Shown here: piece after piece, positions 2,162 through 15,195 of the stretch
Layout: the number at the start of each line of letters is the position of its first letter
How positions within the stretch are numbered: the stretch's first letter is position 1
Virus record (IMG/VR): IMGVR_UViG_3300035670_010871
Coordinates: 1-31,888 of that record
Direction: 5' to 3' (one strand)
DNA length: 31,888 nucleotides
DNA from: a virus
Notes under the pieces: model-generated
Databases searched by the model: none
What the model saw: the letters and a program-made list of their open reading frames with translations, nothing else
What the model was told of the DNA's origin: nothing
Translations under genes and position numbers: made by a program

Positions 2162-3688
2162 TTATCTCAAATCGTATATCAGACTCTTTTTGTCAAAAAC
2201 GTAGTTTCCCTTTTCGATTTCACATTTGTTTTCAAAAACAACGACCTTACTCCCTTTTACAAAGACCATCCAATCAACATTGTATTTTGCAACCTCACCC
2301 GTTTTGGTCATAATTAAACGACCATCTTGTTCCAAGATTTCGTCGTAACCTTTAACCTGTGCAGTACGTTTACCGTTTTCGGTGATAACCTCCATGTCGA
2401 TTTTTTGTACCGCGTCTTTGGTTTTTCCCGCTCCTGCGGTTACTGAGACTTTGAAATTCGGTAGGCTCTCCATGATTCGGTTCTTTGCCGTAAGTTCTCT
2501 ACGAGTCCCAATATTATCTTTTTCTTTCAAAGTATTCATTATGGAATGAAAGGTTTGTGAATTGGGGTCGAAAATTCTATTACTGAATTGCTCGATGTAA
2601 TTACACATTCTCTTCATCTCTTGAACTTGGTCATCGTAACTTTTACCTTGAAAAACAATTGGTTTTTCACCCATAGATTTGGTGATAACTCTGTTGAGGT
2701 CACGGACCATAATACAAAAAACCGAATAGTTTGTGTTCAAGTAGTTGATGACACTGCGACCTGGTTTTTCTAAATCATATACCCCAGGTATTTCACCATT
2801 TTCTCTTTTGTTGTGGTATTTGTCACGAAACAATCTCTTGAGAATGTCGTTGATGGTGTTTTTGTATTGGGTTCTTGCTCGGGTGTTTGTGTTAAACAAC
2901 TCCCGATAGATTTCCACTTCGTTTCTTGGGCACGCCTCTGATTTTGTCTCCATAAGTAATTTACCCATTTCTTGTGATTCTAATAATTTGGTCTCAGTCT
3001 TAAGTAAAAACATATCTTCCACAAAGTCCCAATTGACAACAGTCCAAAAGTTGTTGATGTACTCATCTCTTTTGTTTCGGTATTTGAGGTAATATGCATG
3101 TTCCCACAAATCTAAGCCTAAAAGTGGATATCCGCCGCCTTCAATTACATTCATTAATGGATTATCTTGGTTGGGGGTAGACATAATCTTTAGTGTCCCT
3201 TTGTTGGTTAACACTAACCATACCCAACCTGAGCCGAATCTTTGTTTAGCAACTTCTTCAAATTGTTTTTTGAATTTTTCAAAAGTTCCGAAGTCCTTTT
3301 TGATTTTTGTCATCAAGTTTTTACCCACTCTTTGTGGTTTGGGTGACAACATGTTCCAAAAAAGTGCATGGTTGAAAGCACCACCAGCATTGTCCCTTAC
3401 TCCCTTAGGATATCTTGATATGTTCCTTACGATTCTTTCCAAATCGTGGTCACCCTTTCTTTTGGATAATAGGTTGTTGAGTTTATCTACGTAACCTTTG
3501 TAGTGTTTGTTATAGTGAACATCCATTGTCTCGGAATCAATAAACCTCTTTACCGCTGAGTAACTGTAGGGTAGTTTTTCAATTCCGATTTTTTTTCCTT
3601 CTTTTAAAATTTCTTTGGCTTGTTCTCTTTTCTTTTCGTGGAGAATTTGATTTTCTATTTTCTCTACTTGTTCTTGTATATGTTGCAT
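2162..3688 (-). CDS. Mn-type superoxide dismutase fused to a probable PD-(D/E)XK nuclease-like domain
   Basis: The 508-residue product begins with a charged helix (1-35), then a full iron/manganese superoxide dismutase domain (about 36-235). All four metal ligands are visible: His58 in DVHYNKHYKGYV, His107 in FNHALFW, Asp193 and His197 in DLWEHAYY. Tyr66 matches the gateway Tyr34 of E. coli SodA. Gly103, four residues before His107, plus Gln174 in TPNQD is the second-sphere pattern of Mn enzymes rather than Fe enzymes. After a helical linker (about 236-400), the C-terminal ~100 residues carry Asp431, then a QVK motif (444-446), then a hydrophobic VDWMVFV strand; this resembles PD-(D/E)XK nucleases, but I infer this without a search. 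Dismutation of superoxide is likely if folded; the joint role is unknown. It has its own candidate promoter. Confidence 0.8.
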   Translation of the reverse strand: MQHIQEQVEKIENQILHEKKREQAKEILKEGKKIGIEKLPYSYSAVKRFIDSETMDVHYNKHYKGYVDKLNNLLSKRKGDHDLERIVRNISRYPKGVRDNAGGAFNHALFWNMLSPKPQRVGKNLMTKIKKDFGTFEKFKKQFEEVAKQRFGSGWVWLVLTNKGTLKIMSTPNQDNPLMNVIEGGGYPLLGLDLWEHAYYLKYRNKRDEYINNFWTVVNWDFVEDMFLLKTETKLLESQEMGKLLMETKSEACPRNEVEIYRELFNTNTRARTQYKNTINDILKRLFRDKYHNKRENGEIPGVYDLEKPGRSVINYLNTNYSVFCIMVRDLNRVITKSMGEKPIVFQGKSYDDQVQEMKRMCNYIEQFSNRIFDPNSQTFHSIMNTLKEKDNIGTRRELTAKNRIMESLPNFKVSVTAGAGKTKDAVQKIDMEVITENGKRTAQVKGYDEILEQDGRLIMTKTGEVAKYNVDWMVFVKGSKVVVFENKCEIEKGNYVFDKKSLIYDLR

Positions 3689-3728: not shown

Positions 3729-5483
3729 TTATCTCCTTTGATTGATACTGTTTAAAATTTCTTCAACAATATTTGTTTCATCGGGTGTGTCACCCATGAC
3801 TGTGGCAATAATTCTTTTTTTGTTGTTTAATATGTCGTAAATAATACCCTCGATTGTGTTTTCAAAAATTGGGTAGTAGACCAAAACATTATTTTTTTGT
3901 CCGTATCTGTACGCACGGTCTTCAGACTGGCTATGGTCTGAGGGTAGGAACGACAGGTCGTTCATAATAACAGCTTCCGCGGCGGTGAGGGTGATTCCAA
4001 CACCAGCGGCTTTTATGTTACCCACGAAAACTTTTACTTTTTCATCCTCTTGGAAACGGTCGACAGCATCTTGTCTTTGGATTTTACTCATTGAACCATC
4101 CAACCGAACTGCACTTTTTCCAAAGTGATTACAGATGACCTCAAGTGATTTTGTGAAATTGCAGAAGATAATAACCTTTTTTCCTTGCTCCACAATGTTT
4201 TCCGCAAGTTCAATTGTGTGTTGTGTCTTTTCATCCGCAATCACCTGTCGAACTTGAGTTAGTTTTGTAAATTGAATTGAAAGGTTTTTACTTTCATCGG
4301 GGTTCTTGTCGTACCAATTGTAGTAATCACCCATGACCTCTTCGTACATTTTTGAACGAAGTCTAAGGTAAACAGGAGTGATAATTTTGTCGGGTAAATC
4401 CAAAACATCTTCTTTCAATCTTCTCAGAACTGTAGCCGAGGTTCTGTCTCTTAGTTCCTCTAAATTGGAAGCACCCATCACGTTCCAAACTTTTCTTGGT
4501 CCCACTTTGAACTGATATCCCGCACAATATCTAACAACATACGCCATCCAATTTTTCGCGACAGGGGAATCCACAAGGGATAAAAGGTTAAAGTAATTAA
4601 TCGGTCGAGATGTCATAGGGGTTCCTGTGAGTAACCACAATCTTTCAATGTCTCTAACCAAGTCGTTAATTAGTTTTGTTCTTTGTGCCTGAACGTTTTG
4701 AATATAGTGTGCCTCGTCGATGATTACCAAATCAAACTTTGAGTTCAAGATGATTGAGTTTTTTCTGTCTTTTGAATCGTGGAAGTTTTTGATAATGTCA
4801 TAGTTCATGATGACAATCTCAGCGTCCTCCGAATAATTTTTTCCTTCGCAAACATAACTGATTTTTTCACTGTAGAGTTGGTATTCTCTTTGCCAGTTAA
4901 TTTTCAGAGATGCGGGACAAATGATTAGGATTTTCTTAGCCCCCGTTTCTAAGGACGCAATTATAGTGGAGGTTGTTTTCCCCAAACCCATATCATCCGC
5001 CAAGATATACTTTTTGTTTTTGAGGAGTTCTTCGATGGCAATCTTTTGGTGGTCCAATGGTGGACGATGTGAATACTTCGAGTAATCCACTTCTTTAATT
5101 TCAACCTTATTGTCCTTAATGATTGCCGCTTTGGGAATCCACATGTCAGATAGTTGGTCCCCCTCGTTAAACTTACCCCAAATGTGATATGCTTTGTCCT
5201 TCTCAGAGAGAAGTTTTTCAATCCACATCCTTTCGGGTATGGTCATCAAAAATCTTTCGTCGGCAATTTTGTTGGCAAAATAAGAATCCAAAACCACCCA
5301 CTTTTTAGCAACAAGGGGGTTTTTATCGTGATTGTTTAAAATATATTCAGACTGACTACGCGTGGGATAAAATTTGGAATTTTTCTCTAACTTGAGTTTT
5401 AATCCCAAAATATAATTGTTAGCCCCTTGATAGTTCTCTAAAATAGAGATGGCTTTGGATTCTATAGTTGTTCCAACCGACAT
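3729..5483 (-). CDS. SNF2-family (SWI2/SNF2, SF2) DNA helicase/translocase
   Basis: The 584-residue protein has both RecA-like lobes of a SNF2 ATPase. Motif I is DDMGLGKT (163-170), motif II is DEAH (256-259), motif III is LTGTPM (285-290), motif V is near GVGITLTAA (494-502) and motif VI is QSEDRAYRYGQ (519-529), the last being the SNF2 signature. The N-terminal 140 residues are a separate region with an IPxxxWIE-like segment, reminiscent of SMARCAL1-like annealing helicases. It may do the job of T4 UvsW, remodelling forks and recombination intermediates, but it belongs to a different branch. Its ATG overlaps the stop of the SET-domain gene by one base (TAATG), indicating coupled translation. 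All motifs appear intact. Confidence 0.92.
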   Translation of the reverse strand: MSVGTTIESKAISILENYQGANNYILGLKLKLEKNSKFYPTRSQSEYILNNHDKNPLVAKKWVVLDSYFANKIADERFLMTIPERMWIEKLLSEKDKAYHIWGKFNEGDQLSDMWIPKAAIIKDNKVEIKEVDYSKYSHRPPLDHQKIAIEELLKNKKYILADDMGLGKTTSTIIASLETGAKKILIICPASLKINWQREYQLYSEKISYVCEGKNYSEDAEIVIMNYDIIKNFHDSKDRKNSIILNSKFDLVIIDEAHYIQNVQAQRTKLINDLVRDIERLWLLTGTPMTSRPINYFNLLSLVDSPVAKNWMAYVVRYCAGYQFKVGPRKVWNVMGASNLEELRDRTSATVLRRLKEDVLDLPDKIITPVYLRLRSKMYEEVMGDYYNWYDKNPDESKNLSIQFTKLTQVRQVIADEKTQHTIELAENIVEQGKKVIIFCNFTKSLEVICNHFGKSAVRLDGSMSKIQRQDAVDRFQEDEKVKVFVGNIKAAGVGITLTAAEAVIMNDLSFLPSDHSQSEDRAYRYGQKNNVLVYYPIFENTIEGIIYDILNNKKRIIATVMGDTPDETNIVEEILNSINQRR

Positions 5484-5878
5484 TATTTAATTTCAATATC
5501 CGAACGCCCGTCTGACCAGTAATTTTCATCACCGTACCAAACAAAAATTTCCTCACCTGGTTTAATATCAGTCAGGGCACGAAAATAGAAAGTACCATTT
5601 TCCATGTTGTTTTCCCAATCTGCGTTTGGTGTATCGGAATGGTTGTAGTAGGATGCATAACCCATCGCAACAACGTGTTGGTACCAACCGATACCTTTTG
5701 GCCAAGCAAAACGGTGATTCATAAACAAACCACTTGTCTGACCAGGTTCAATTGGTAAAACCATCAGTGGACATTCCTCGATGATTTCTCCTTTCTTAAT
5801 TTTCTTGGTAGCGAACACACCCAATCCGTGTATGTCACTTGATTTGACCGTAATCTTGGTGGGTAAGATAAGTTCCAT
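5483..5878 (-). CDS. SET-domain protein (putative lysine methyltransferase)
   Basis: This 131-residue protein is a compact SET domain with little else. The N-terminal GLGVFATKKIKKGE (18-31) matches the first SET motif that binds S-adenosylmethionine. MGYASYYNHSDTPNA (72-86) matches the NHS..PN pseudoknot motif, and GEEIFVWYG (108-116) matches the final motif, with Tyr115 in the place of the catalytic tyrosine. There are no post-SET zinc cysteines. SET enzymes methylate lysines; the substrate here (host or phage protein) cannot be told from sequence. It is the first gene of the leftward block and its stop codon overlaps the SNF2 helicase start. A Bacteroidota-type promoter lies just upstream, so it may be expressed early. 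Confidence 0.85.
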   Translation of the reverse strand: MELILPTKITVKSSDIHGLGVFATKKIKKGEIIEECPLMVLPIEPGQTSGLFMNHRFAWPKGIGWYQHVVAMGYASYYNHSDTPNADWENNMENGTFYFRALTDIKPGEEIFVWYGDENYWSDGRSDIEIK

Positions 5879-11056: not shown

Positions 11057-11878
11057 ATGAAAACTAAACCGACTGAAGTCTTTAAAAGTGGAACTCCCGA
11101 CCTCAAATACTATGCTTTTGATTGGGATGACAACTTAGTACACATGCCCACCAAAATCATTTTGTTAAATGATAAGGGAGATGAGGTAGAAATGTCAACT
11201 GAGGACTTTGCAACTTTTAGAGATAAAATCGGAATCGAAGACTTTGATTACGACGGTAAAACTGTTGTGGATTATGCGGATAATCCTTTTCGCTTTTTTG
11301 GTGTAGATGGTGACGAACAGTTTTTAATTGACTCTCTGAATGCAGAATTGGGTCCTGCGTGGAAAGATTTTAAGGAATCAATAAACAATGGTTCTATTTT
11401 TGCAATTATTACTGCACGAGGTCACAATCCAAACACCATTAAAGAGGCGGTTTACAACTACATCAATCAAGAGTTTGGTGGTATTTCAAAAAGTGAACTT
11501 ATCAAAAACCTCAAAAAATACCGAGACTTTGTCAACGAGGAAAATATGACCGATGAAGAATTAATTCGTTCGTATTTGGAACTCAACCGTTATAACCCCG
11601 TAAGTTTTGGTGACCAAGACAATGCCGTGTCTCCCGAGGAGGCGAAGGTCAAAGCGATGTCAGATTTTGTAAATTATGTAAAATCTATGGCAGCGCTCTT
11701 ACATAAGCAAGCATTTCTTAAAAAAGGAATTGCAAATAAATTTATACCTGGTAAAGCAACTATTGGATTCTCAGATGATGATGAAAAGAATGTAGAAAAG
11801 ATTAAGAACTACTTTAAATCAATCAAAGAACCAATTAAAACATATTCAACTAAAGGAGGGATAAAAAAAGAATACTAG
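11057..11878 (+). CDS. HAD-superfamily hydrolase (putative phosphatase)
   Basis: Starting at the ATG at 11057 (a TTG two codons earlier is also possible), the product has 273 residues. HAD motif I is FDWDDN with Asp22 as nucleophile and Asp24 as acid/base. Motif II is IITARG with Thr119. A motif III lysine lies in EEAKVKAM (Lys197 or 199), and motif IV is GFSDDDEKN with Asp240/241. The long cap (about 30-110) and a helical insertion before motif III are typical size for phosphatases of this class. All catalytic positions appear present. The substrate is unknown; small-molecule phosphate or nucleic-acid ends are both possible. It sits between sheath and tube genes, normally adjacent in T4, so it is an accessory insertion in the late tail region. 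Confidence 0.75.
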   Translation: MKTKPTEVFKSGTPDLKYYAFDWDDNLVHMPTKIILLNDKGDEVEMSTEDFATFRDKIGIEDFDYDGKTVVDYADNPFRFFGVDGDEQFLIDSLNAELGPAWKDFKESINNGSIFAIITARGHNPNTIKEAVYNYINQEFGGISKSELIKNLKKYRDFVNEENMTDEELIRSYLELNRYNPVSFGDQDNAVSPEEAKVKAMSDFVNYVKSMAALLHKQAFLKKGIANKFIPGKATIGFSDDDEKNVEKIKNYFKSIKEPIKTYSTKGGIKKEY

Positions 11879-11988: not shown

Positions 11989-12477
11989 ATGGCGGATTTA
12001 TTAATGAAAATGCCGATACCTTACGAACCTAAAAGACAAAACAGGTTTATTTTAAGGTTTCCATCATCCTTGGGTATCAATGAGTGGTTTGTAGAATCTA
12101 CTGCAAGACCACACATTACAATCAACCCAACTGAAATTCAATTTTTGAATACATCAACATTTGTTGCTGGAAGATTTAACTGGCAAACAATTCCAGTTGT
12201 GTTCCGTGACCCAATCGGACCTTCGGCAGCACAAGCCCTTATGGAGTGGGTTCGTTTACACGCTGAATCTGTGACAGGTCGTATGGGTTATGCAGCAGGT
12301 TACAAAAAAGACATCGACCTCGAGATGTTGGACCCAACAGGTGTTGTCGTAGAAAAATGGATTCTCTATGGTACATTCTTAACTGACGTTAACTTCAACT
12401 CACTTAACTATTCTCAAGATGGATTGGCAACAATTTCAGCAACTTTGAGAATGGACCGTTGTGTATTGATTTACTAA
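11989..12477 (+). CDS. Tail tube protein, T4 gp19-like
   Basis: The 162-residue product is almost the same length as T4 gp19 (163). It starts with a short helix and PKRQNRFILRFP (15-26), then has the LGINEWFVESTARPHITINP segment (29-48) typical of gp19, the middle DPIGPSAAQALMEWVRLH (74-91) and ends with a strand pair in GLATISATLRMDRCVLIY. Tube subunits stack as hexameric rings inside the sheath to form the DNA channel. It is followed by a strong terminator. The high copy number of this protein fits a strong separate promoter upstream. Confidence 0.92.
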   Translation: MADLLMKMPIPYEPKRQNRFILRFPSSLGINEWFVESTARPHITINPTEIQFLNTSTFVAGRFNWQTIPVVFRDPIGPSAAQALMEWVRLHAESVTGRMGYAAGYKKDIDLEMLDPTGVVVEKWILYGTFLTDVNFNSLNYSQDGLATISATLRMDRCVLIY

Positions 12478-12547: not shown

Positions 12548-13291
12548 ATGGACCAAGATACTATCAATTACGGACAACAACAATTTACGTTACCACACGA
12601 TGTGGTACCCCTTCCTTCCAAAGGAATTTTTTATAAAAACAAAAAAAACTCCCTAAAGGTTGGGTATTTGACCGCTAGTGATGAAAACATTCTTATGGCT
12701 GGTGGTAAGGATATGACAACCAATTTACTTCGTGCTAAAATCTATGAACCTGGTGTTAGACCTGAAGATTTATTAGAAACCGACATCGAAGCAATCCTTA
12801 TTTTCTTGAGGAACACTGCATTTGGACCTAACATTGAACTCAACTTGACGGACCCAAAAACGGGTAAAAAATTTGTTGCTAACGAGAGGTTGGATGAACT
12901 TAACATTACAAATGGAACACAACCTAACGAGGATGGTACTTTTACAGTTAAACTTCCAATGTCAGAAAAAAATGTCAAAATAAAACCCTTAACATTCGGA
13001 GAGGTTACTGAAATAAATAACATGGCAGATACCTATCCACAAGGAAGGGTTGCACCGTTAAGAACTTGGAGACTTCAAAAAGAAATTGTTGAAGTTGAGG
13101 GAATAAAGGACAAAGTTGAAATTCAAAAGTTTATTGAATCGATGCCGTTAGCGGATTCAAAGTTCATAAAAAATTTCATGAATGAAAACGCACCTCGGTT
13201 GGATATGAACCGAGTCATTATTGCCCCGTCAGGAGAAAAGCTGTCTGTGAACATCGGCTTCGGGGTTGACTTTTTTCGCCCTTTCTTCTGA
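12548..13291 (+). CDS. Baseplate hub assembly protein / tape-measure chaperone, T4 gp26-like
   Basis: This 247-residue protein has VVPLPSKGIFYKNKKNSLKVGYLTASDENIL (residues 18-48), the LPS-G-FY...YLTA-DE-IL pattern found in gp26-type baseplate proteins of T4-like phages, followed by LLRAKIYEPGVRPEDLLETDIEAILIFLRNTAFG (60-93). The second half (about 120-240) is a helical region with PLTFGEVTEI. It sits directly before the tape measure, the usual place of tail assembly chaperones. Near its 3' end an overlapping +1 frame continues for about 50 codons, suggesting that a fraction of ribosomes make a longer product like the lambda G/GT pair. T4 gp26 is 208 residues. The family assignment is by pattern. 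Confidence 0.65.
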   Translation: MDQDTINYGQQQFTLPHDVVPLPSKGIFYKNKKNSLKVGYLTASDENILMAGGKDMTTNLLRAKIYEPGVRPEDLLETDIEAILIFLRNTAFGPNIELNLTDPKTGKKFVANERLDELNITNGTQPNEDGTFTVKLPMSEKNVKIKPLTFGEVTEINNMADTYPQGRVAPLRTWRLQKEIVEVEGIKDKVEIQKFIESMPLADSKFIKNFMNENAPRLDMNRVIIAPSGEKLSVNIGFGVDFFRPFF

Positions 13292-13433
13292 TTATAGAAA
13301 AAATCAAATAGATGAGTTTTATTACTTGTCTAAATTTTTTCATATTTCATATACTGATTTTACTACTATGCCAGTTTTCATAAGAAAATATCTTTTGGAT
13401 AAGTGGGTGGAGGAAAATCAAAAAAAATCCTAA
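13278..13433 (+). CDS. Out-of-frame C-terminal extension of the tape-measure chaperone (probable programmed +1/-2 frameshift product)
   Basis: This frame is +1 relative to the gp26-like gene, open from 13251 (after a TGA at 13248) to TAA at 13431. It has no ATG near its beginning; the first in-frame ATG is at 13368, too late to make sense. The coded segment DYRKNQIDEFYYLSK, then FFHISYTDFTTMPVFIRKYLLDKWVEENQ, is helical, aromatic-rich and looks like the C-terminal part of GT-type chaperones. A likely shift site is TTT-TTT-C at 13271-13277: tRNA-Phe in the P site can re-pair from TTT to TTC in the +1 frame, and a -2 slip within the T run gives the same frame. The fusion would be about 295 residues. 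A separate gene starting at TTG 13266 is the alternative. Confidence 0.55.
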   Translation, partial: ALSSDYRKNQIDEFYYLSKFFHISYTDFTTMPVFIRKYLLDKWVEENQKKS

Positions 13434-13461: not shown

Positions 13462-15195
13462 ATGGCAGATGAAAATTTAGGTTTTTTAGGAAACTTGAAA
13501 GAACTTATTGGTGAATCCGCGGATTTGGTTGGAAATATTGGAAGGATACAAGATGGAATCACCAATATCAATCGGTCCTTTGGTGAATCACGAGAACGAT
13601 TTTTAGAGTTTTCGATTGCGGTTTCGGACAGTGTTTCGGATTTTGTTAGACTTGGGGGTAGGGCAAGTGACGTAAGTGACACCATAGCAAAAATTGGTGA
13701 AGGGGCTAGGAGAAATGTTGTGGCATCACAAGAGTCTCTTCAGGAAATATTTGCTACTTCAAGGTTTTTAGGGGAAAATGTTGAATATTTGGTTGAGCAA
13801 TTTGGTGTTATTGGTGTTGAATTATCCAATATCGGTGAGGGTGTTGAGGAGTCTGTGGGATACGTCCAATCACTTGGACTCAATGCCGTGACAGTAATGG
13901 GTGATGTCCTCAACAAAGTGGACATGATGAATCGATTCAACTTCCAAGATGGAGTTGTTGGGTTTACAAAAATGGCGGCACAGGCTTCGATGTTAAGATT
14001 CGACATGCAGACTACCGCAAATTTTGCGGATAAAGTTCTCAACCCTGAAGGTGCAATACAAATGGCCGCAGCGTTTCAGAGACTTGGAGTTGCTACTGGA
14101 GATTTAGTTGACCCGTTTATCTTGATGGATAAATCAATCAATGACCCCCAAGGTCTTCAGGATTCATTGATTGAGATGACAAAACAGTTCACCTACTTCG
14201 ATGAAAAAACGGGTAACTTTAGAATTAATCCTGGTGGGGTCCGTTTGATGAAAGAATTAGCTGACACTGCGGGTATTTCATTCGAACAATTTTCCAAAAC
14301 CGCTTTAGCCGCAGCAGATTTAGACAGAAGACTTGGTGAAATATCTTTTGATGTTCAAGGTAGTGAGGAAGATAAAATGCTCGTTGCCAATATGGCAAAA
14401 ATGGGTGAGGGTGGAAGATACGAAGTACAATTCAGAGACGAAAGGGGTAAATTACAAACTGAGAGTTTGGATAAACTTACTCAATCTCAGTTTGAACTTA
14501 TTCGTAAACAAGCTGCCGAGAGACCTGAAACGATGGAGGATATTGCCAGAAAACAATTGGCTACGGATGAATTGATTGCTCGGGATATCGCTGCGTTACC
14601 CATGAGACTGGGTTATGCCATTGCTGGACAGGAAGGTTTACAAAGAGCAATTGAGAGGGGTAGAATGGAAGAGGAAAGAATCTCGGGTGCGGCATTTACT
14701 CCTGGTGTACTTCCAACTGCGGAAGAATTTAGAAAACAGTTCCAAAATGTTGGTGACCAAGTTGGTCAAAGTATTGTTAGTCTGTTGAAAGGACAAACCA
14801 CGTTTGAAGATGTTACGCAAACTCTGAAGAGTGCGATTGAGACCGAATCTGTAAATCTTAATATGGCGGAAAGATATCAGAACTTCCTTTCCAAATACCA
14901 AGAACTTACCAACCAACGTGATAATATGTTGGTGACAAGAATCGGACAACAAGAAGATTCAAGATTCCCCCAATGGGAAGAGTACCAAAGAACAACTCGT
15001 TCAATGGGTACTGAAACTATTACAGGAAAAGTTGACGTTGTGGGTGAATTCAACATCAAAGTCGACGCACCAAACACTCTTACAGAACAACAAGTGTTCA
15101 CTATTTTCAACAACCCTGAAGTGAAAGCCAACATCTACAAAATTGTAGAAACACAAACAACCGCGGCAATCAAAAAACTTAAAAACACGAACTAA
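13462..15195 (+). CDS. Tape measure / baseplate hub protein, T4 gp29-like
   Basis: The 577-residue length is close to T4 gp29 (590). The N-terminal 150 residues are heptad-like helices rich in Gly, Val, Ser and Glu (FLGNLKELIGESADLVGNIG onward), the central part (about 150-290) is Ala/Met/Phe-rich with FTKMAAQASMLRF, and further helices follow to about 500. The C-terminus (about 515-577) is a beta strand pair GTETITGKVDVVGEFNIKV and a last helix. Tape measures set tail length, with roughly one and a half angstroms of tail per residue, so a tail of T4-like length is expected. It stands after the chaperone gene and before the large baseplate genes. The identity rests on length, composition and gene order rather than a strong motif. 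Confidence 0.65.
   Translation: MADENLGFLGNLKELIGESADLVGNIGRIQDGITNINRSFGESRERFLEFSIAVSDSVSDFVRLGGRASDVSDTIAKIGEGARRNVVASQESLQEIFATSRFLGENVEYLVEQFGVIGVELSNIGEGVEESVGYVQSLGLNAVTVMGDVLNKVDMMNRFNFQDGVVGFTKMAAQASMLRFDMQTTANFADKVLNPEGAIQMAAAFQRLGVATGDLVDPFILMDKSINDPQGLQDSLIEMTKQFTYFDEKTGNFRINPGGVRLMKELADTAGISFEQFSKTALAAADLDRRLGEISFDVQGSEEDKMLVANMAKMGEGGRYEVQFRDERGKLQTESLDKLTQSQFELIRKQAAERPETMEDIARKQLATDELIARDIAALPMRLGYAIAGQEGLQRAIERGRMEEERISGAAFTPGVLPTAEEFRKQFQNVGDQVGQSIVSLLKGQTTFEDVTQTLKSAIETESVNLNMAERYQNFLSKYQELTNQRDNMLVTRIGQQEDSRFPQWEEYQRTTRSMGTETITGKVDVVGEFNIKVDAPNTLTEQQVFTIFNNPEVKANIYKIVETQTTAAIKKLKNTN

Follow-up and report, generated by a model that had tools for sequence, protein, structure and literature searches.

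A probable programmed +1 frameshift with an upstream hairpin in the tail assembly chaperone gene of a T4-like phage

Frameshifted tail assembly chaperones have been known since lambda. Vladimirov, Gautam and Davidson reportedly described in 2022 that several T4-like groups have retained frameshifting, whereas T4 employs two genes, 26 and 51; as their work is said to treat T4-like chaperone frameshifting, the opinion of an initial sequence-only reading that a gp26 frameshift was undescribed in T4-like phages had to be given up. In the +1 shift of E. coli RF2, as in the one proposed here, P-site slippage is helped by a duplex lying upstream close to the E site and by an A-site codon that is decoded slowly. 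RF2 relies for this on a Shine-Dalgarno (SD) sequence located 3 nt 5' of CUU and on a stop codon, both of which are missing at the present locus.

The T4-like chaperones, comprising T4 gp26/gp51 and their frameshifted relatives, share with the present locus the family PF12322/phrog_150, the place before what is here a probable tape measure gene, and a short and a (here predicted) long form with an apparently related C-terminal tail. T4 has two genes, whereas here one gene with a slip is proposed; the cyanophage-type relatives have a -1 site, U_UUU_UUC, with an SD-like motif, in contrast to a +1 site, UUU_CGN, with an upstream hairpin here. In excerpts of a 2016 review, long-tailed phages are said to have frameshifted tail chaperones, with T4 as the exception. 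Some T4-like phages have a short gene plus a fused long gene instead, according to a passage of the PRFect paper that cites Vladimirov 2022, and excerpts of a 2025 paper interpret the polyT signals of T4-like chaperone genes as promoting -1 shifts.

For lambda gpG/gpGT and the related -1 and -2 systems of P2 and Mu, review passages describe a low-level shift by which ribosomes close to the 3' end of the short chaperone gene add a tail domain; the locus reported here would resemble them in this respect and differs in its +1 direction, its slip site, and a hairpin upstream instead of a downstream element. A review excerpt describes the tail chaperone of the haloarchaeal myovirus HSTV-2 as 'very likely +1', which is alike in being a +1 shift in a tail chaperone gene and different in concerning an archaeal virus. 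The influenza A PA-X site UCC_UUU_CGU, as given in part of PMC3498833, is alike in P-site UUU re-pairing to UUC, the +1 direction and A-site CGN, whereas it works on a eukaryotic ribosome in an unrelated gene, so only the slip site is comparable. Refolding hairpins in portions of PMC3639245 and PMC6321510 similarly sit close behind the E site, in designed +1 constructs at CUUUGA or a yeast site, whereas the present one is a natural candidate. Literature searches, which covered open-access PMC papers, turned up no T4-like chaperone gene in which a hairpin precedes a +1 shift. T4-like chaperone frameshifting is already known, and the +1 mode with an upstream hairpin looks new.

Two reading frames at the end of the chaperone gene

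The window, i.e., the whole 31,888-nt stretch of viral DNA analysed (IMG/VR record IMGVR_UViG_3300035670_010871), has the following features around the junction.

11989..12477, plus strand: tail tube gene just 5' of the gp26-like gene (phrog_4542 tail tube, E 2.6e-25)
12548..13291, plus strand: gp26-like gene for the chaperone's short form, 247 aa (PF12322 T4_baseplate, E 8.2e-8; phrog_150, E 1.1e-10)
13223..13266, plus strand: upstream RNA hairpin, by excess pairing and covariation against shuffles
13223-13228 with 13261-13266, plus strand: outer stem of the hairpin, six pairs
13229-13237, plus strand: 5' bulge of the hairpin
13238-13246 with 13252-13260, plus strand: inner stem of the hairpin, nine pairs
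13271..13279, plus strand: putative shift site TTT TTT CGC (E-site TTT; P-site TTT, 13274-13276; A-site CGC, 13277-13279)
13271-13277, plus strand: heptamer TTTTTTC within the shift site
13275..13433, plus strand: putative C-terminal part specific to the long form, decoded in the +1 frame and beginning with the re-paired TTC (ORF 13251-13433, stop at 13431-13433)
13289..13291, plus strand: 0-frame stop TGA closing the short form, read from the sequence
13462..15195, plus strand: probable tape measure gene, the chaperone's client, by position only
LSVNIGFGVDFFALSSDYR: trans-frame tryptic peptide predicted for a +1 slip

The 3' end of the gp26-like gene reads GAC TTT TTT CGC CCT TTC TTC TGA, and its protein ends in GVDFFRPFF. 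The +1 ORF is open from stop to stop for 60 codons (TSASGLTFFALSSDYRKNQIDEFYYLSKFFHISYTDFTTMPVFIRKYLLDKWVEENQKKS, then the stop), with 47 codons beyond the 0-frame stop. The initial reading had described this overlap, as well as the two TTT codons of the heptamer in the 0 frame, and both are as it stated. It had also called the small frame free of ATG, which needs correcting: no start codon is conserved, but the window itself has an ATG at 13368-13370, the 40th codon and therefore too late to start the extension domain, and a TTG, a weak start, at 13266-13268 just 5' of the shift site.

The upstream neighbour was assigned to the tail tube by its profile match, and the downstream one to the tape measure by position. 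A position directly before the tape measure, as first claimed, would match that in the isolates immuto, LIS04 and SP-15, in which the next large gene after the chaperone is annotated as tape measure; the window's own 13462-15195 gave no Pfam or PHROG match. All 52 homologues in alignment A7 match PF12322. No tRNA genes were found in the window, and an Rfam search yielded one chance miRNA match only (E 0.99). In the records of immuto, Mel-JY01, LIS04 and SP-15 (L029, L030, L032, L034), no joined frameshift gene is listed, and the region after the chaperone is either unannotated or given as a separate small hypothetical ORF.

Three further genes lie on the minus strand of the window. That at 2162-3688 adjoins phage structural genes and encodes 508 aa; the two Fe/Mn superoxide dismutase domains are both present (E 4.7e-41 and 5.2e-20), whereas some 280 other residues match nothing in Pfam. 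The gene at 3729-5483 encodes an SNF2-type helicase (PF00176, E 3.1e-27), and that at 5483-5878 a protein of 131 aa consisting mostly of a SET domain (PF00856, E 4.2e-18), which is unusual for a phage.

Conservation of the putative slip site and probable direction of the slip

A first scan gave 26 loci, 25 of them with the gene end (the truncated L023 was dropped), and a profile scan the best 80 of at least 496 relatives; with the window itself, they make up a window clade of 106 readable loci, or 77 after removal of those with at least 95% nucleotide identity. The two-frame layout with an open +1 extension is present in 106/106 readable loci, the best 80 of 496 included, and the same pair of frames occurs in 25/25 loci of the first scan; one locus from another record (L022) has junction letters identical to the window. 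Over four scans and the window, the 0-frame product measures 211-256 aa in 217/217 readable loci, too short for a fusion. A one-base sequencing or assembly error in a truly fused gene, for which the initial reading had asked for fused relatives, would have to recur in 106/106 clade loci and six distant phage records, and no single-frame fusion occurs among the 217 loci. In the 71 pairs with equal-length extensions, a dN/dS-like ratio of 0.071 was obtained in the +1 frame versus 0.97 and 1.87 in the other two, the differences on +1-frame codon positions 1, 2 and 3 being 527, 237 and 1108. This comparison of sequences indicates that the extension is coding, with its +1 frame under purifying selection. 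The 106 conserved loci and the dN/dS-like ratio rule out a chance overlap, and leave a base error with a practically negligible probability.

Alignment of relatives at the junction, as the initial reading had suggested, revealed a conserved site: P-site TTT and A-site CGN are found in 77/77 non-redundant clade loci (best 80 of 496 included). The features of a UUU_CGN +1 site (P-site UUU, next base C, A-site CGN) are thus present throughout, and the +1 frame of the extension in all 106 loci does not fit a canonical -1 heptamer X_XXY_YYZ. The third base of the A-site codon varies freely (G 29, T 26, C 20, A 2), the E-site codon is TTT in 74/77 and TTC in 3/77, and the distance from the first base of the P-site codon to the 0-frame stop is 5 codons in 68/77 and 7 codons in 9/77. 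The A-site Arg is CGN in 77/77, as against 98/732 Arg codons elsewhere in these genes, of which AGA accounts for 572/732; CGG and CGC make up 49/77 at the A site versus 8/732 elsewhere. TTT_CGN also occurs in-frame in three other ORFs of the window, so the site alone is insufficient for a slip.

More distant relatives were sought by tblastn, which gave 12 phage records; eight were read, the remainder being near-duplicates. LR756508, immuto, Mel-JY01, GXN1, LIS04 and SP-15, and also RM378, have a +1 extension, and XacN1 and LR756511 the other shifted frame. Scanning with LR756508, immuto and Mel-JY01 yielded set A3 (best 80 of at least 599 relatives, 79 readable), in which 77/79 readable loci have a TTT +1 extension, 72 being non-redundant; with SP-15, LIS04 and GXN1, set A4 was obtained (32/35 loci readable), in which 24/32 have it, 21 non-redundant. 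The two scans add 93 non-redundant TTT +1 loci (72 + 21; A3 best 80 of 599), a count which needs an in-frame TTT at most 14 codons from the stop and hence selects for TTT. The sites of the 72 A3 loci are TTTTTTTGG (50), TTTTTTTAC (13) and others (9). Loci without such a TTT are L240 and L271 of the 79, and L286, L287, L296, L300, L301 and L304-L306 of the 32; the off-contig loci L023, L200, L278, L284 and L302 were dropped. L286 has TTT TTT CGG further upstream with a +1 extension, L287 shares the same 0-frame end, and L304-L306 are of the -1 type.

Two groups of distant loci stand apart. In L296, L300 and L301, as well as L291, L294 and L295, the +1 extension follows the 0-frame end ELFNPS; here, CCC_A just after the TTC/TTT may be the true +1 site, since TTC, or TTT before A, re-pairs poorly. 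In L240 and L271, within A3, the extension lies in the -1 frame with the site A_AAT_TTC, a canonical -1 heptamer, which by its sequence appears to be a natural switch of slip direction.

The -1 branch is represented by a cyanophage-type set (L307-L386; best 80 of at least 594 relatives, 76 non-redundant). U_UUU_UUC is in register in 76/76 non-redundant loci (best 80 of 594), and in P-SSM2, S-PM2, HTVC008M and phiM12 the body and tail of phrog_150 are in two frames, the tail in the -1 frame. The first small-frame ATG is located 2 codons past the stop in 69/80 loci, so that re-initiation is also possible; frameshifting or re-initiation could produce the tail in the cyanophage-type loci.

Such starts bear on the idea that the extension is a separate small protein starting inside the end of the gp26-like gene, for which the TTG of the window and the +1-frame codons near or before the site in the clade (ATG in 34/77, TTG in 69/77) may also be cited. 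No start codon is conserved among the +1 loci, however, despite the 34/77 with an ATG upstream of the site, a point on which the initial reading had made its proposal depend. Moreover, 6/77 clade loci have a +1-frame TAG two codons 5' of the site and then no ATG, GTG or TTG until at least 17 codons past it. In the distant sets, the interval is free of ATG in 56/72 A3 and 17/21 A4 loci, and of any start-like codon in 27/72 and 7/21. Given that an internal start also leaves the invariant TTT_CGN unexplained, we regard it as very unlikely.

The same frame could be reached by a Mu-like -2 shift on the U run, with one extra Phe, and the initial reading had allowed for either direction. The TTTTTT run is indeed present in 74/77 clade loci. 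However, a -2 move would leave the P-site tRNA badly paired in loci with an interrupted run, by TTC TTT in 3/77 clade, 3/72 A3 and 6/21 A4 loci and by CAG or ACG before TTT in 4/72 A3 loci; because all of these (3/77, 7/72 in all and 6/21) keep the +1-frame extension, the +1 slip is favoured, and a -2 slip seems a shade less probable still than an internal start. RNA polymerase slippage, which would make part of the mRNA one base short, could draw on the six- or seven-T runs in most loci, whereas loci with TTCTTTCG and CAGTTTCTT have no run of more than 3 T at the site and retain the extension; this explanation we hold to be highly improbable. A programmed shift yielding a long form of the tape-measure chaperone, as first proposed, is clearly the best reading of the conserved junction.

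An upstream hairpin in the +1 branch

The window clade keeps [GA]CCCC (-51 to -47) and GGGG (-12 to -9), synonymous positions included; the two form an outer stem ending at -8, with an inner stem above the 5' bulge. The initial reading had overlooked this hairpin. The base of the hairpin ends 8 nt 5' of the P-site codon, with 4 nt between the stem and the E-site codon, and the window's own fold has six of the nine inner-stem pairs plus two shifted ones. The Gly codon at GGGG is GGG in 76/77 clade loci versus 95/1027 Gly codons elsewhere. Over 15 pairs, 85.9% of cells are paired, compared with 77.3% in shuffles, of which 0/500 reached the observed value, and with 35.7-59.6% when the register is slid; the covariation score is 0.320 versus 0.199 (0/500); in the lineage of L024, two outer pairs have changed on both sides. 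Redrawing synonymous codons lowered the outer stem to 81.7% from an observed 97.6% and gave a mean MFE of -9.77 (sd 0.32) against -15.82. Permuting codons within columns gave an MFE of -13.73 and an inner pairing of 72.9% (max 74.6) against 78.5% observed; for the outer stem it gave 96.9% against the same 97.6%, a comparison that cannot separate this nearly invariant stem from chance. All of these controls (shuffle, redraw and permutation) leave shared ancestry in place. RNAalifold on the clade recovered the outer stem only. Folding at -117 to -60 is in small excess (-5.26 vs -4.19), and downstream folding in moderate excess (-10.10 vs -8.41).

In the distant sets, hairpins were sought sequence by sequence against synonymous-codon controls, a procedure set up after examples had been seen and thus partly post hoc. 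Hairpins that satisfy a strict definition (a stability of at least -3 kcal/mol and an end 3-12 nt 5' of the P-site codon) were found in 42/72 A3 loci (control mean 14.35, max 22) with 39 different sequences, and in 10/21 A4 loci (control mean 3.55, max 6) with 10 different sequences; 30/72 and 11/21 loci have no strict proximal hairpin. One example is LR756508, whose seven-pair hairpin ends 4 nt 5' of TTT_C. RNAalifold found no common upstream structure in A3 or A4. Upstream folding shows a clear excess in A3 (-12.98 vs -8.30) and a modest one in A4 (-9.45 vs -7.53; control place, -6.43 vs -5.18), and no excess in the -1 set (-6.54 vs -6.99). Downstream folding in A3 is also in excess, the largest of the sets (-13.93 vs -10.32), and a 3' stimulatory element may therefore exist. 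A pairing of TCAGGAGAAA with TTTCTTCTGA across the shift site was considered and dropped, because a ribosome at the site would sit inside the loop. Overall, the sequences point to a covarying stable stem close behind the E site in the window clade, and to different hairpins in many, not all, distant +1 loci.

Alternatively, the slip might be +1 with GGGG acting as an internal SD, the hairpin being incidental or having another role. The window clade exceeds its control in computed anti-SD pairing (-8.27 vs -6.76), as does A3 (-4.99 vs -3.47), and upstream SD duplexes beat hairpins for +1 in the test system of PMC6321510, as far as the excerpt goes. Against this, SD-like pentamers are rare in the +1 branch (2/77 in the window clade, 3/72 in A3 and 2/21 in A4), compared with 67/76 of the -1 loci, where they start 14-15 nt 5' of the slippery TTT; the L024 lineage has GGAC for GGGG with the stem kept; and the distant hairpins come in 39 (A3) and 10 (A4) different sequences. 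We consider this alternative unlikely, albeit the most credible of those weighed, and retain the +1 slip with a putative stimulatory hairpin.

Relation to T4 gp26 and gp51 and a putative model

The profile phrog_150 matches T4 twice, gp51 over profile positions 3-281 and gp26 over 10-236. In single pairwise comparisons, the extension profile of the window clade gave 98.9% against that of A3 and 96.7% against A4. The cyanophage tails gave 97.0% against the gp51 tails, and 45.2 and 54.7% against the A3 and A4 extensions, respectively. Alone, the window-clade extension gave 23.1% against the gp51 tails and 1.4% against the cyanophage tails, and the A3 extension 5.6% against the gp51 tails; the pooled +1 extensions against the pooled cyanophage and gp51 tails gave 90.9%. 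The pooled profiles suggest that the C-terminal domain of the long form is related to the gp51 tail, and the two predicted products are in keeping with what T4 encodes in genes 26 and 51, a short and a long tail assembly chaperone. Passages of PMC3004832 count T4 gp26 among the chaperones of hub assembly and describe gp51 as required for assembly but missing from the particle. The Campylobacter phage CP220 (W10) has a short copy and a copy with an in-frame tail about 9 kb apart (2343-3035 and 11158-11790), which by sequence appears to be a T4-like two-gene arrangement outside T4's own family.

The predicted model of the short form is a confident one (mean pLDDT 86.4). Its first Foldseek match, the HK97 tail assembly chaperone (2ob9), is weak (E 0.61, prob 0.69), and VIA-align, with matches under Z 5 left out, gave 3fgx (Z 5.9, 86 aligned, rmsd 4.7), 3klu (Z 5.5, 81 aligned, rmsd 3.2) and 2ob9 (Z 5.1, 91 aligned, rmsd 4.3), Z levels that are common according to the tool. 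YqbN and RBSTP2171 are presumably tail assembly chaperone relatives. The predicted body fold is weakly nearest to tail assembly chaperones (HK97 gp13, YqbN), which agrees with the assignment without proving it. A PDB sequence search with the chaperone profile returned one chance match only (E 0.99).

The sequence itself shows two conserved frames, of which the +1 frame is under selection, together with an invariant site and the excess hairpin pairing; from them we infer the slip, its level, the part of the hairpin and a lambda-like action on the tape measure. We are highly confident that a programmed +1 slip with an upstream hairpin yields a short and a long chaperone, and propose a putative model. 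Most ribosomes would end at the 0-frame stop, giving the 247-aa short form. In the others, P-site tRNA-Phe would re-pair from UUU to UUC with complete pairing and a +1 move; tRNA-Phe pairs better with UUC, which is how UUU_C slippage is explained in the consulted part of Firth 2012 (PMC3498833). Meanwhile, the mRNA hairpin would form again in the wake of the ribosome and so promote slipping forwards and oppose slipping backwards. Afterwards, slipped ribosomes would continue in the +1 frame to a long form of about 294 aa with the gp51-tail-related C-terminal domain. Finally, the two forms would play the part towards the tape measure that gpG and gpGT play in lambda.

According to excerpts of PMC3639245 and PMC6321510, a hairpin close 5' of the site lowers the level of -1 shifting and raises that of +1 shifting, in yeast as well as in E. 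coli extract, and the upstream hairpin is likened there to an SD duplex (Cho 2013; Huang 2018). In E. coli extract, the +1 effect of the hairpin is weaker than that of an SD and is seen only without RF2, at CUUUGA (PMC6321510, in part). A stimulatory role of the hairpin in this phage would follow by analogy, and the contrast between +1/hairpin and -1/SD branches is what Cho 2013 and Huang 2018 would predict.

In summary, we lean slightly towards a widespread bacterial class of +1 frameshifts driven by refolding of a hairpin behind the ribosome, without an SD or a stop codon, the slip direction following the upstream element within one chaperone family: a hairpin with UUU_Y for +1, a Shine-Dalgarno sequence with U_UUU_UUC for -1, and in T4 a second gene instead. 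T4 would thereby be placed in a family where both slip directions and the two-gene solution coexist. The junction would also supply a rule for annotating a domain that is missed, or listed as an orphan ORF, in the records of isolates. The +1 branch may offer many natural, independently varying examples of a hairpin behind the ribosome, earlier tests in the papers cited here having used designed reporters, and would thus make a long-standing mechanical idea directly testable.
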